A stretch of 48,680 nt of DNA from a virus. Made by a program: the position numbers and the translations under genes. Positions 25,859 to 45,494 of this stretch are shown piece by piece. Where the stretch lies: the IMG/VR virus record IMGVR_UViG_3300044612_003865, positions 1 through 48,680 of that record. One strand, written 5' to 3'. A model generated the notes under the pieces. The model ran no database searches, had not been told where the DNA came from, and saw only the letters and a list, made by a program, of their open reading frames with translations. How positions within the stretch are numbered: the stretch's first letter is position 1; the number at the start of each line of letters is the position of its first letter.

Positions 25859-25890
25859 CAAAAATAATCTTTCTTTTTGATATACACAAA
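25859..25890 (-). promoter_or_regulatory. Bacteroidota-type promoter of helicase cassette
   Basis: On the minus strand TTTG (25887-25890) and TATTTTTG (25859-25866) are separated by 20 nt, an exact match to the TTTG / TAnnTTTG consensus. It reads into the gene starting at 25814. This is the clearest promoter in the window. Confidence 0.75.
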
Positions 25891-25930: not shown

Positions 25931-25963
25931 TAAAAAAGCCGATGCACTGCATCGGCTAAATAA
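25931..25963 (-). terminator. Intrinsic terminator upstream of helicase cassette
   Basis: The stem AGCCGATGC / GCATCGGCT has a 3-nt loop and a minus-strand TTTTTTATT tail. It lies 18 nt after the 56-aa gene stop and insulates the cassette from upstream transcription. Confidence 0.85.
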
Positions 25964-25974
25964 AAAAAGTGCCC

Positions 25975-26145
25975 TTAAAAAAGCACTGTGAAATTAGTTG
26001 TATCAAGGTAGCCGGTGTATTGCTGCTCGTGATCGTTGATGTTCCAAAAGTAGAATTTCCCATCGGGTCGGATGGAGTAAACTTCATATACATTTTTATC
26101 TCCTGGAAACTGAATGAGGCTGGTTACTGAAATTGAAGTTGTCAT
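25975..26145 (-). CDS. 56-aa hypothetical protein
   Basis: A short ORF (MTTSISVTSLIQFPGDKNVY ...) ending NFTVLF, with an aromatic middle (GKFYFWNINDHEQQYTGYLD). It has an A/T-rich leader and a strong terminator directly downstream, which supports a real monocistronic gene. Unknown family. It lies beside the 5' end of the plus-strand RNA. Confidence 0.6.
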   Translation of the reverse strand: MTTSISVTSLIQFPGDKNVYEVYSIRPDGKFYFWNINDHEQQYTGYLDTTNFTVLF

Positions 26146-26189
26146 GGCTGATAATTTTTTTTATTTATGATATGCAAAAAACAAGGATG

Positions 26190-26751
26190 AGGTTAGGGCA
26201 AAATGCCCCAAAAGGAAACTGGAATACCGGAACCCGCACGTGCGGGAGAGGATATGCCGGGAAAACTTTTGGGCTTGACCAACCGAAATACTTTTGCAAT
26301 TCAGAAAAGAAAAAATAGCCATGCCAACTTATGTAAATAGCCTGGTTGGAGGAGATACCAATATGATCAGTTTACCATGCGGCCCGATGGCTTTGGTCTG
26401 AACATCAACCAACGACAGGCCCGGCCAACCTCTTATTATAGTTACTTATGATTTCAGTTTTGGAAATTGCCACTGATACCGCAGAGCCAACCAGGGTAAG
26501 TGCAGGGTTCTACCCAGGCGCAGGCACGAGCACGGGTAGCTCCCTGCGCGCCCGCCAGTTGGCACAAGGTTTGAGTGGCCACCGGCCGATAGGCACATTA
26601 AAACATGCCGTGCTGCCAACCGGGCATCGAATAACCCACCAAATTAGCAGGCTACAACTGTGGTTATTGGTTGCACGGTTTGGCAGCACACCGCTACCCC
26701 TTCGGGGATGGCAGCGATAGCTGGGATCCATCCCCGAAGGGAAAATTTTTT
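26190..26751 (+). ncRNA. Large structured non-coding RNA candidate
   Basis: A stretch of about 560 nt on the strand opposite almost all genes, without a convincing ORF, that ends in a strong plus-strand terminator. Seen pairings: CCCGC / GCGGG at 26233-26246; a two-part helix 26502-26515 with 26534-26547 (GCAGGG then CTACCC, symmetric tt/ct internal loop); 10-bp helix GTGCTGCCAA (26610-26619) with TTGGCAGCAC (26680-26689); inside it AATAACC (26630) with GGTTATT (26662). The 5' end is not defined, and no plus promoter consensus was found. Size and phage context recall GOLLD or ROOL RNAs, but membership is not shown. Confidence 0.6.
26698..26751 (+). terminator. Strong plus-strand terminator of the structured RNA
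   Basis: CCCTTCGGGGATGG (26698-26711) and CCATCCCCGAAGGG (26728-26741) form a perfect 14-bp outer stem. CAGC-GATA-GCTG stacks inside. AAAATTTTTT follows. The T-run is on the plus side, which fixes the direction. Confidence 0.8.
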
Positions 26752-26782
26752 AAATAACGAAATCTTTCGTAGATTAAAGGGT

Positions 26783-26936: not shown

Positions 26937-27974
26937 TTAGCTTAAGTATTCGGTAAAGTTTTGGCAGAGGTCGAAGGCTCGGCGGCTGCGCTCGCTTGCG
27001 GTACCATCCAAAAGGCTGCCCATTTTAGCGTCTGCGCTTTTCCAGTCTTTTACGTTTTGGTAATATCCGGTTATGGCGTTGTATGCCCCAAACAGGGTGC
27101 CGCGGGTGCTGTTCATTTGCTGCGTTTCTGCGGTTTGCGCATATTCGTACACGTCCTCAATGATGTTTTCATACTGCTTGGAAAATTCAACGTTCGTGCG
27201 CTTGTCACGTACTGCCTGAAAAATTACATCGCTGGGCGCCATGGCTAAAGAAATCAGGCGCTTGGTTTCGGCGTCTGTAATATAGCTTTTTGCCATCCCT
27301 TGAAAAATGGGTTCCAGTTGGGCGGCAAGTTGGTAACTGATACCCATCACCCGGTGAGCTTGTGCAAGTTGCTGCGGTGCGCTCGCTGTGTGGCGGATGG
27401 TTACCATGTTTGAGCAATCACGAAGGGCGGCGGTTAGTGTATTGTTGCACACTATGCGAACGGGTGTAAATGCTGCCTGAATGCTGCCGCTGCCGTCGTG
27501 GGTGGTGGTTAAAAAAATGTACTGTTCTATCAGGTCGGATTTATCCACCTTTATGTACCCGGGCAATTTGGCGGTTATAAAAATGCGCTCACCGTTACCC
27601 AGTGCGCCGGCGGTCTCGTACATTATACCCTCATCGCCTCCCACTATCGCATCAAAAAAACAAAAGGCGGTGCGGTTTTGCACGACTTCGTAACGGCTGC
27701 CCACTATCCCGAGTACCTGCTCCGTATCTGTGCGAACGGTGGCAAAGTGGGTTTTTATTTCCGTGTCGGGCTGTGCTTCCGTTTTGCCGTTTTCAAATGT
27801 AGGGGTAAAAATTGGGCGGCGGGCTACCTCCCAGTTAAGCTGGGCGGCTTCTATCGCTTCCGCACTTGTGGGGTATTGGTCAACTATTTGCCCGAGTCCG
27901 TGCCAGGCTTTTTCTTTTACGCTAAAAAATGAGGCTTTGCCTGTCATTTGGTTGATGTTCAAATTATGTGCCAT
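26937..27974 (-). CDS. DUF932 family phage/plasmid protein
   Basis: A 345-aa protein with the DUF932 pattern: N-terminal MTGKASFFSVKEKAWHGLGQ, then FATVRTDTEQVLGIVGSRYE, FITAKLPGYIKV and FTPVRIVCNNTLTAAL, which are typical of this phage/plasmid-related family. The family is common in mobile elements; its biochemical role is unclear. It is flanked by terminators at 26783 and 27994, so it and the 38-aa peptide are a separate unit. Confidence 0.85.
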   Translation of the reverse strand: MAHNLNINQMTGKASFFSVKEKAWHGLGQIVDQYPTSAEAIEAAQLNWEVARRPIFTPTFENGKTEAQPDTEIKTHFATVRTDTEQVLGIVGSRYEVVQNRTAFCFFDAIVGGDEGIMYETAGALGNGERIFITAKLPGYIKVDKSDLIEQYIFLTTTHDGSGSIQAAFTPVRIVCNNTLTAALRDCSNMVTIRHTASAPQQLAQAHRVMGISYQLAAQLEPIFQGMAKSYITDAETKRLISLAMAPSDVIFQAVRDKRTNVEFSKQYENIIEDVYEYAQTAETQQMNSTRGTLFGAYNAITGYYQNVKDWKSADAKMGSLLDGTASERSRRAFDLCQNFTEYLS

Positions 27975-42548: not shown

Positions 42549-42604
42549 GTTTTTTACTGTTTTTTGTGGTGATCAATTAAGAAATACTGGAGAACTGAGC
42601 GACT

Positions 42605-42995
42605 CAAATACTTGTTACAAATCGCCCTTTTTAAATTGTAAATAGTTGAATATCAATGTTTTAGGCTGTATTCGACCCCTGATTTTGTTACAATTTGTTA
42701 CACTTTTTTTTGTAACAAACTGTATTTTTTTGTAACAAATTCTAATAAAAAAAGAGTTTGTTACAACGCTGTAATACAGTGCAGTAGCGGCTTTCAGCCG
42801 TTTTTTGTGTGCACTGTATTTTTTGTAACAAGGAAATCTGAAAATTTTTTGCATGTGCGACCTTTTAATTTTTACCCTTTTTAGCCCTTTTGGCAGCAGC
42901 AGCGCCGTAAATTTCTTCTGCTACTACCCCCACTATTACCGCTGTTTTTGCGGAAGTGGTTGAAAATCAACGTTGTAACAAATTTGTAACAAGGT
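42605..42995. other. TTGTAACAA iteron-like array, putative replication origin
   Basis: Nine copies of TTGTTACA(A) or its complement TTGTAACAA at 42612, 42685, 42695, 42710, 42730, 42758, 42823, 42973 and 42984. They lie in AT-rich DNA between the primase-helicase and DnaA-like genes. A CGGC-TTTCA-GCCG hairpin with a plus-side T6 run sits at about 42788-42806. No convincing protein gene fills 42549-43004. Confidence 0.65.
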
Positions 42996-43004
42996 TTTTA
43001 CACC

Positions 43005-45494
43005 CTAAAAAAGCTCTGCCGGCTTAAACCCGGTGTCAAAATCGCCTCCGGTGGTCATTTCCTTATTATACTCCTGCTCCGGGGTGTAGCGGATCCGTGC
43101 TTCATCCTCCGGAGTAACAAAATCCTGCCGGCGAAAAACGAACGGGCGGCCATTGTCCTTTACCTCCACGTGTATGGTTTCCTCCGCCTGGGTTTTGCTG
43201 TCGAACTTCTTATCCCAGCGGGGGTAAGTGTGGCGGATCTGCTTATACTGCTTTTGTATTTGTGTGGCAAGCTCTTCGGGGCGCGCATTAGGTCCTGCTG
43301 CTTCTACCGCTGAACTATAGTGTCGGTATGTTTTTCCATTGTAATCAAATTCGTGGTACATATCCACCTTTAGCCGGTCGCGCAGTACCTGATCGAGGTA
43401 GTAGCTTTCAAACTTGTTGTTGAGCACATTGCGGTGGATGGCGTTTTTGGTCATCATTATCTGGTCGCAGGCAAAGTCGAGGAAAGCATCGCGCATGTAA
43501 TCCCGTAACTGCTTTTCGATTGCTGGCTGGCTGTGGGCGATTACTTTCTTTAGTGCATCGGTTTTTAGCAGCTCCGGATCAAACCACATCCTGGTTACCC
43601 GGTCGGTTACCATTTTGCGCCGGTTGAGGAACGATAGCAGCATGGGCACTTCCTCACGCATCTGCATTTCGAGGTCGGGATTCTTTTTGGTAATGCGCGG
43701 CACCTTTATTACCCAGAAGCGCAGGTCCTCGTCGCTGGCATATATAAAGTTGTCCTCGTTGTTGGTAAGGAACATGAACTTGCCAAAGAAATCAATCTCT
43801 ACCTGATCCTTACCCTTGGCGTTCACCATTATTTTATCGGCGGTACTAAGCGCCTTTATTTTTTCTACTACTACAGCTTTATCTATCCGGCTCTCTTCGC
43901 ATATTACGAGCAGCTTGCTGCTCCAGCTGCTGTTGAAATCGTTTGCCAGGTCGGCATTGCCAACGATGGCGCAGTTGGCGGTAAAAATGTACTTAAGCAA
44001 TTTAGCCAGGGTACTTTTACCGGTTTCGTTTTCGCGGCTTACGAGGCAAAGGATAGGGAGAATGTGTGTGGGATTGGTGTAAAGTAGCTGCAGGTAATCG
44101 AGCCCAAGCTCGAGGTGGGGTATATCCTTGCTTTCGCCGGTGCGAGGGTCTTTGTAGTGTACGCTTCCGCTGCCGAAAATGTGTAGCAAAAACTGCATAA
44201 TCAGCGGGCAGTCATCCTGTGTGCATGGTTCCGGATCGGGATCATGATCGAAAGGGGCGTACAAATTGAAGCAGTTATGTATTACCTGCTGAAAATTGCT
44301 ATGGTCCGGCACGTTGCAAAAGGCCTTGTACTTTGGCGTGTGCTTAATAAAGCCCTTGCCATGATCATCTACAATGGTACCCTTTTGCCGGCCATGAAAC
44401 ATGCGCTGCAGGTTATTGTTTTTATCGGGTACCTGCACAAACTCGTAGTACTGATCGCCTACCCGGAAATAACTCTTTGCCTCGGTAGGTACCTGCAGCT
44501 TACAGGTGCCGCTTTCGGCATCGTACTTAAACCTGTTGCCGTTCCACACAAATTCAATGTTGGCAATATCGGGCCTAAACTCGCTGTGAAAGGCAAAGAA
44601 CTCGTTTACATCCTTTAGCCTGAAATGGCGGAGAACCTTCTGCTCCTGCCCGGTGTGGCTTACCGGGAATTTTACAAACCATGTACCGGGCTTGCTTACG
44701 CTCAGCAGGTCGTCGGCAATTTCATCTACCTTATCGGGCTTGGCCACCAGCAGATCATCCAAACCTTTGGGCCCCATGGTAAAGCCGGTGCCGGTTTTTT
44801 CGCCCATGCCCAGGCTATCTACATGCATAAACCACAAGTCCACATTTGCATCGGCGAGTACATTGCGGAACGTAACCACGCTGCCAAAAAAGTTGTGTGG
44901 GCGGCGGTACAGATCTACACCATCCTCCAGCTCCTTGGTGGTAATATTAAGGGCATCGCCATCGGTAAGCCATATTACCCGCTGCACCTTGCACACGCTG
45001 ATCAGGCTGAGTACGTCCGGATGTAGCGCGCCCGTTTCCTTATCCTTTATATGGGTAATGCTGGTAAGCCCTACGCAGGGTATGCCGTGCATGCTTGCCT
45101 TAAATGCTTTAAAGTAGCCCTCGGTAAGTACCAGGGTAGGTACGCTTTCCTTTTTTTCGTAAGCACTTACCAGCAATGGCGGAAAGAAAGGGTGGGTGCC
45201 CTGCCCCTTGGGTAGCCTGTACTTTTGCTCGCTGCCGTTTTTGTTTACAATGGGCTCCTTCAGCCTGGTAATGCAATACTCGTTGCGCTTCCACCGGCTA
45301 CCTTCTTTGGCATAGTTAATCAGGTGCCTGTCAATACTATAAACCAGTATATCAATGCCCTGCTCTACATCGCGAAAGATGGGGAAATCCTTCAGGTAAT
45401 TTTCGCCTAGTTTACTATCGAACTGCCAAAGCTGAATGGAGTTTAGCTCTTCGGTTACGCCTATTAAATTCATCCGGTTATCGAAGTATGACAT
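43005..45494 (-). CDS. Primase-helicase (TOPRIM-like and SF3 domains)
   Basis: An 829-aa replication protein. The N-terminal TOPRIM-like region shows Glu125 (LVLTEGYFKA) and Asp178/Asp180 (WLTDGDALN), as in DUF3854 primases. The C-terminal SF3/D5-type ATPase has Walker A ENETGKST (488-495) and Walker B LLVICEE (Glu533-534), followed by a TNNEDNF sensor-like motif. It would prime and unwind phage DNA from the neighbouring array, relying on host polymerase since none is encoded. Its start follows a TTCATCA-type leader. Confidence 0.88.
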   Translation of the reverse strand: MSYFDNRMNLIGVTEELNSIQLWQFDSKLGENYLKDFPIFRDVEQGIDILVYSIDRHLINYAKEGSRWKRNEYCITRLKEPIVNKNGSEQKYRLPKGQGTHPFFPPLLVSAYEKKESVPTLVLTEGYFKAFKASMHGIPCVGLTSITHIKDKETGALHPDVLSLISVCKVQRVIWLTDGDALNITTKELEDGVDLYRRPHNFFGSVVTFRNVLADANVDLWFMHVDSLGMGEKTGTGFTMGPKGLDDLLVAKPDKVDEIADDLLSVSKPGTWFVKFPVSHTGQEQKVLRHFRLKDVNEFFAFHSEFRPDIANIEFVWNGNRFKYDAESGTCKLQVPTEAKSYFRVGDQYYEFVQVPDKNNNLQRMFHGRQKGTIVDDHGKGFIKHTPKYKAFCNVPDHSNFQQVIHNCFNLYAPFDHDPDPEPCTQDDCPLIMQFLLHIFGSGSVHYKDPRTGESKDIPHLELGLDYLQLLYTNPTHILPILCLVSRENETGKSTLAKLLKYIFTANCAIVGNADLANDFNSSWSSKLLVICEESRIDKAVVVEKIKALSTADKIMVNAKGKDQVEIDFFGKFMFLTNNEDNFIYASDEDLRFWVIKVPRITKKNPDLEMQMREEVPMLLSFLNRRKMVTDRVTRMWFDPELLKTDALKKVIAHSQPAIEKQLRDYMRDAFLDFACDQIMMTKNAIHRNVLNNKFESYYLDQVLRDRLKVDMYHEFDYNGKTYRHYSSAVEAAGPNARPEELATQIQKQYKQIRHTYPRWDKKFDSKTQAEETIHVEVKDNGRPFVFRRQDFVTPEDEARIRYTPEQEYNKEMTTGGDFDTGFKPAELF

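Follow-up and report, generated by a model that had tools for sequence, protein, structure and literature searches.

What is the function of the strongly structured gap that follows position 26145 in the IMG/VR virus record IMGVR_UViG_3300044612_003865? The record (48,680 bases, referred to here in its entirety as the window) belongs by gene content to a temperate tailed phage, with genes for an integrase, a tape measure protein, a head maturation protease, a major tail protein and a P4-type primase, together with a weak portal match. The gap is flanked by a gene for a 56 amino acid (aa) protein (25975-26145) and by a unit ending in a DUF932 gene (26937-27974), both on the minus strand. A reading made from the letters of this DNA alone (the sequence-only reading) had noted that nearly all genes lie on the minus strand and that the gap holds no credible gene, and both observations were borne out: no open reading frame (ORF) in 26146-26780 has a Pfam match and none is credible. 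Coding interpretations of 26448-26720 (plus) and 26510-26731 (minus) were rejected, as neither belongs to a protein family. The same reading had proposed a single large non-coding RNA (ncRNA) of ~560 nt on the plus strand at 26190-26751, reminiscent of GOLLD and ROOL. We find instead that the region comprises two modules, 26136-26330 and 26331-26756, the first of which is probably a single-stranded DNA (ssDNA) hairpin promoter of the Frpo/ssi-like kind, and possibly a primer start, that drives the minus-strand 56-aa gene.

The 195-nt hairpin and its probable target gene

Folded as RNA, 26160-26756 has a z score of -6.4 on the plus strand (0/100 shuffled sequences were as good) and -4.5 on the minus strand. 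The plus strand of 26130-26336 folds into one hairpin of 195 nt and does so better than the minus strand. This first structural unit begins at 26136, not at 26190 as had been proposed, and overlaps the start of the 56-aa gene. Its two arms contain the leader and start codon of that gene in complementary and near-identical form, respectively (Table 1), and the right arm may be able to act as the non-template strand.

Table 1 Features of the hairpin region in window coordinates
Feature	Positions	Strand	Basis or remark
56-aa ORF, ATG at 26145	25975-26145	-	ATG 75 nt from GGAATACC, a spacing shared with relatives
Terminator of 56-aa gene	25937-25957	-	Terminator scan
Gene-sense TGCATATCAT	26167-26176	-	Position of conserved -10-like TGCATATAAT in Bacteroidota relatives (leader comparison)
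Whole 195-nt hairpin	26136-26330	+ (template for the 56-aa gene)	ssDNA fold -39.1 kcal/mol, z -6.16, 0/200 shuffles
Left arm: complement of 56-aa gene's leader and start codon	26136-26179	+	Inverted repeats I3 and I4, fold
Core hairpin of family	26204-26278	+	Covariance model R1 match
Most conserved stretch, GGAATACCGGA-(stem-loop)-GAGGATATGCCGGGAAA	26221-26264	+	Alignments A2 and A3; with preceding CT, the Bacteroidota variant
Right arm: near-identical to gene's coding strand, including ATG (TTTTGCAATTCAGAAAAGAAAAAATAGCCATGCCAACTT)	26292-26330	+	Inverted repeats I3 and I4, fold
Bacteroidota-type promoter match, TTTG-N17-TACTTTTG	26268-26296	+	Weak: 1 of 3 window matches, 2.6 expected by chance
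Module 2, strongly structured orphan stretch	26331-26756	+	RNA fold z -7.6 (+), -5.3 (-)
Terminator-like hairpin and T-run	26698-26751	+	Inverted repeat I9, sequence

The 56-aa ORF is the probable target gene of the hairpin. In most Bacteroidota relatives the distance from ATG to GGAATACC is 66-75 nt, and the leaders of these relatives have TGCATATAAT in common, where the window has TGCATATCAT; of the promoter boxes, a -10-like box is present in the window and a canonical -35 is absent. The 56-aa gene seems to form a unit by itself, closed by a terminator of its own, and the next gene has its own promoter-like site at 25859-25890.

The core hairpin family

The first lead to relatives came from plasmids: a weak match (E 0.05) at 26212-26264 that sits at the same place in ~700-nt gaps of Burkholderia and Mycetohabitans plasmids. 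Used as bait, the Burkholderia gap recovered at least 5000 plasmid records, the matches including F-like Enterobacteriaceae plasmids, Klebsiella, Alphaproteobacteria and a plasmid of the actinomycetote Glutamicibacter, as well as a microvirus, and 30 stretches of IMG/VR fitted a gapped pattern. We define the family here as the GGAATACC/GGATATGCC core hairpin described by a covariance model (R1) that was built without the window sequence. R1 matches the window over its full length with 73.4 bits (E 3.2e-17). The core consensus is CnTGGAATACCGgA-(stem-loop)-GAGGATATGCCGnGAAA or, more fully, an outer arm, CGTGG or CTGG, AATACCGnA, a variable stem-loop, GAGGATATGCCGnGAAA and the other outer arm; the search patterns fixed part of this core as identical, so that its conservation arises partly by selection.

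The family extends over conjugative plasmids, Actinomycetota and Bacteroidota elements, inoviruses, a microvirus and the tailed phage studied here, and at least four other contigs carrying the hairpin have a terminase-like match. The core is also present in a 2.5-kb MobV plasmid, and the Glutamicibacter plasmid NZ_CP059854.1 has five copies, most of which immediately precede genes of leading type, among them ArdC-like and DprA-like ones. A CTGG...CCGGGAAA pattern run against ~85,000 species gave 20 loci, all 20 in Bacteroidota, and loci of this CTGG/CCGGG variant are mostly directly upstream of a gene. Among 296 evenly drawn Bacteroidota genomes R1 found a single match, the one already known, and the hairpin is therefore a feature of mobile elements. 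Attempts to reach relatives through neighbouring genes yielded one contig for DUF932, which ends before the element, and for the PAPS-reductase gene contigs from which the element is absent (in one, L010, the gap is occupied by an HTH gene). The core family is apparently un-named: neither the family, its Bacteroidota variant nor its occurrence in a tailed phage was found in the literature searched; the Frpo' candidates of PMC11541004 might include the core.

The structure is supported by covariation. In 21 Bacteroidota-type sequences both sides have changed in 13 of 22 pairs, giving a score of 0.282 against 0.096 ± 0.013 for shuffled and at most 0.100 for slid alignments, with the signal falling mostly outside the letters forced by the search patterns. 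One core pair occurs in every Watson-Crick combination across the family, as G-C in Pseudomonadota and Actinomycetota, as C-G in Bacteroidota, as T-A at three loci (L061, L063 and L064) and as A-T at another (L050). The outer arms pair 6.83/8 with their own partners and 5.41 ± 0.15 with shuffled partners. For the long arms beyond the core, 43 members average -27.4 kcal/mol with their own and -13.0 ± 0.8 with permuted partners; this permutation ignores relatedness, and the effect amounts to ~18 standard deviations across three phyla. The window ranks first of the 43, its arms pairing with each other at -27.9 compared with a mean of -9.8 with the arms of other members. G-T appositions on the motif strand outnumber A-C by 40:16, and the motif strand is therefore the folding strand. 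The structured element that had been proposed does, then, have a conserved and covarying structure with homologues; in the case of 26136-26330 it is a long DNA hairpin tied to a gene on the opposite strand.

Proposed mode of action and rival explanations

In leading-region members of the family (those of plasmids, Actinomycetota and Bacteroidota), a gene starts 60-120 nt from the hairpin on the opposite strand, so that the motif is on the template strand; the window follows the same spacing and orientation. These properties, like family membership, fold and covariation, were computed directly. The downstream genes encode methylases, antirestriction-region proteins, SSB-like DDLPF proteins and RadC, and in F, ColIb-P9 and Klebsiella the gene is a leading-region methylase. 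The SSB-like proteins, which immediately follow the hairpin in Bacteroidota elements (L082, L084, L088, L089, L093, L090, L070 and L053), are ~90-110 aa long and have no Pfam match, most ending in DDLPF; at two further Bacteroidota loci (L061 and L097) RadC-like JAB proteins occupy this place.

In plasmid F the motif strand is, as we take it from the position of oriT and the direction of the genes, the strand that enters the recipient. In Zot-positive inoviruses, where strand was judged from neighbouring ORFs and that of Zot (L074 was not informative), the hairpin is mostly on the coding, hence packaged, virion strand. In both settings the strand bearing the motif is the one that arrives as ssDNA. 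The complementary-strand origin of the filamentous phage M13, a hairpin on the virion strand at which RNA polymerase starts, is similar in this respect; the M13 intergenic region gives no match to R1.

Frpo/ssi promoters fold on the entering strand, where host RNA polymerase can then start (PMC9849209, PMC11541004, PMC7736820). Frpo1 and Frpo2 of F and the ssi sites of ColIb-P9 resemble the present family in being long imperfect template-strand hairpins directly upstream of leading-region genes, with SSB-type genes downstream, on the strand that enters as ssDNA. Unlike them, and unlike its own plasmid relatives, the window element lies in a tailed phage rather than a conjugative leading region. 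F and ColIb-P9 also each carry one copy of the core apart from their Frpo-like sites, upstream of the leading-region DNA methylase (L077:10010-10071, at ~54009 of F, and L107:23708-23785). On sequence grounds we reject identity of the core with Frpo and place it in a different sequence family. Since R1 does not match the F sites, we say of the core that it works like Frpo, not that it is Frpo.

Single-stranded, the plus strand would fold into the 195-nt hairpin, its left arm serving as template and its right arm as non-template, so that the leader with its -10-like TGCATATCAT would be double-stranded. The conserved core would cap the hairpin and mark it for the polymerase. We infer that the enzyme is RNA polymerase and that it starts at the hairpin, in which case it would proceed leftwards along the 56-aa gene (26145-25975) as far as the terminator at 25957-25937, and its transcript might also prime synthesis of the complementary strand. 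In the phage, the hairpin would presumably act when the plus strand is exposed during replication or entry, whether in replication intermediates or by supercoil-driven extrusion as in phage N4.

Several observations weigh against a promoter of this type. R1 gives no match to Frpo1 or Frpo2 of F or to the two Frpo-like sites of ColIb-P9, so that a different machine may be at work. Extended-arm pairing is lacking in several members (e.g. L045, L052, L061 and L081), and the microvirus copy (L045, bajarodmic virus 506) is on the non-virion strand, contrary to the inovirus rule. The 56-aa product has no protein homologue, and this tailed phage is not known to have an ssDNA phase.

The same hairpin might instead function on double-stranded phage DNA, with negative supercoiling extruding it from the template strand for recognition by RNA polymerase. 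Phage N4, like the window a tailed double-stranded DNA (dsDNA) phage, provides the precedent, its early promoters being template-strand hairpins that require gyrase and SSB (PMC4496689), and here too the folded strand is the template strand. The N4 hairpins are small, however, and are read by a virion RNA polymerase. A 195-nt imperfect cruciform would be costly to extrude, the elements that carry the relatives have genuine ssDNA phases and no N4-type virion polymerase was seen among the scanned proteins, several long ones of which have no family. We consider extrusion rather unlikely. It is distinctly improbable that the hairpin has no promoter role and is a site for single-strand initiation, nicking or protein binding (by a primase, Rep, relaxase or phage protein): inovirus copies mostly on the virion strand and the copy in the 2.5-kb MobV plasmid would suit such a site, both elements needing a second-strand start, but the tight spacing to gene starts, the conserved TGCATATAAT leader in Bacteroidota and the five copies in one plasmid, most directly upstream of a gene, do not.

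The two remaining explanations involve RNA. A riboswitch-like RNA within the 5' leader of the minus-strand message would explain the position 60-120 nt upstream of start codons, yet it is the opposite strand that the wobbles and the purine-rich loops suit, the inovirus copies are mostly on the strand that would not give a leader and there is no Rfam match; this we regard as extremely unlikely. The single ~560-nt ncRNA originally proposed draws on the strong fold and the plus-strand terminator hairpin. Against it, the first unit has its start at 26136 and belongs, as a DNA element, to the gene on the opposite strand, most relatives have no such long gap and the rest of the region has no relatives, making this reading very unlikely. 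GOLLD and ROOL are likewise large structured stretches in phages, but the first module here is a DNA hairpin and Rfam gives no match at gathering score. Searches of the region at gathering and permissive cut-offs alike returned nothing, placing the structure in no Rfam family; the sole GOLLD signal was a chance match of 10.8 bits outside the region on the other strand, and BLASTN of the region among phages gave no match.

A wider proposal, to which we would give even chances, is that a single structural class of ssDNA promoter or primer, recognised by its GGAATACC/GGATATGCC core and with a base-pair switch specific to Bacteroidota, is common to tailed phages, inoviruses, a microvirus and conjugative plasmids from Pseudomonadota, Actinomycetota and Bacteroidota, and that tailed dsDNA phages use it to express a gene from single-stranded stretches of their genomes. 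Hairpin ssDNA promoters are already known, so far mainly from a few enterobacterial plasmids; their presence in a tailed dsDNA phage is unexpected and raises the question of why a promoter made for ssDNA should be found there. A core that covaries across phyla and types of mobile element provides a signature that can be searched for, together with a covariance model and a way to test how RNA polymerase reads ssDNA, and the F and ColIb-P9 copies upstream of the leading-region methylase are directly testable in Escherichia coli.

Module 2 and surrounding features

The ssDNA promoter explanation leaves module 2 unexplained. Whilst the large plus-strand ncRNA fails for the first third of the region, the remaining ~425 nt are still compatible with one, given the plus-strand terminator and the possible Bacteroidota promoter at 26268-26296, a match that could start a ~450-nt plus-strand RNA over module 2. 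A shorter RNA confined to module 2 (~26303-26751) is a tentative proposal that we think somewhat less likely to be right than wrong. The pairings singled out by the sequence-only reading are present in the sequence and the repeat scan: GTGCTGCCAA at ~26610 with TTGGCAGCAC at ~26680, AATAACC at 26630 with GGTTATT at 26662, and the two-part helix 26502-26515/26534-26547, which forms part of a longer helix, 26486-26515/26534-26563. What that reading called a very strong terminator is a perfect 14-bp hairpin (26698-26711/26728-26741) followed by AAAATTTTTT, though a simple terminator scan makes no call here because the loop is 16 nt and A residues precede the T-run. Relatives and strong arm covariation were found for the first module and no homologue for the second: in IMG/VR, exact-match searches with segments of module 2 or of the right arm gave either no matches or three chance matches, and 395 Bacteroidota genomes gave two short chance-like matches to module 2.

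The DUF932 gene adjoins the element, and the leading region of plasmid F also has a DUF932 gene near oriT. On the other side, the minus-strand site at 25859-25890 is a Bacteroidota-type promoter match (TTTG-N20-TATTTTTG) 45 nt upstream of a gene for a 138-aa protein; viral relatives of this protein and of the 56-aa protein were sought and none found. Further away, TTTGTTACAA / TTTGTAACAAA units recur within 42600-42990, where there is also a strong hairpin; the stretch lies directly upstream of the P4-type primase gene (43005-45494) and looks like an iteron replication origin.
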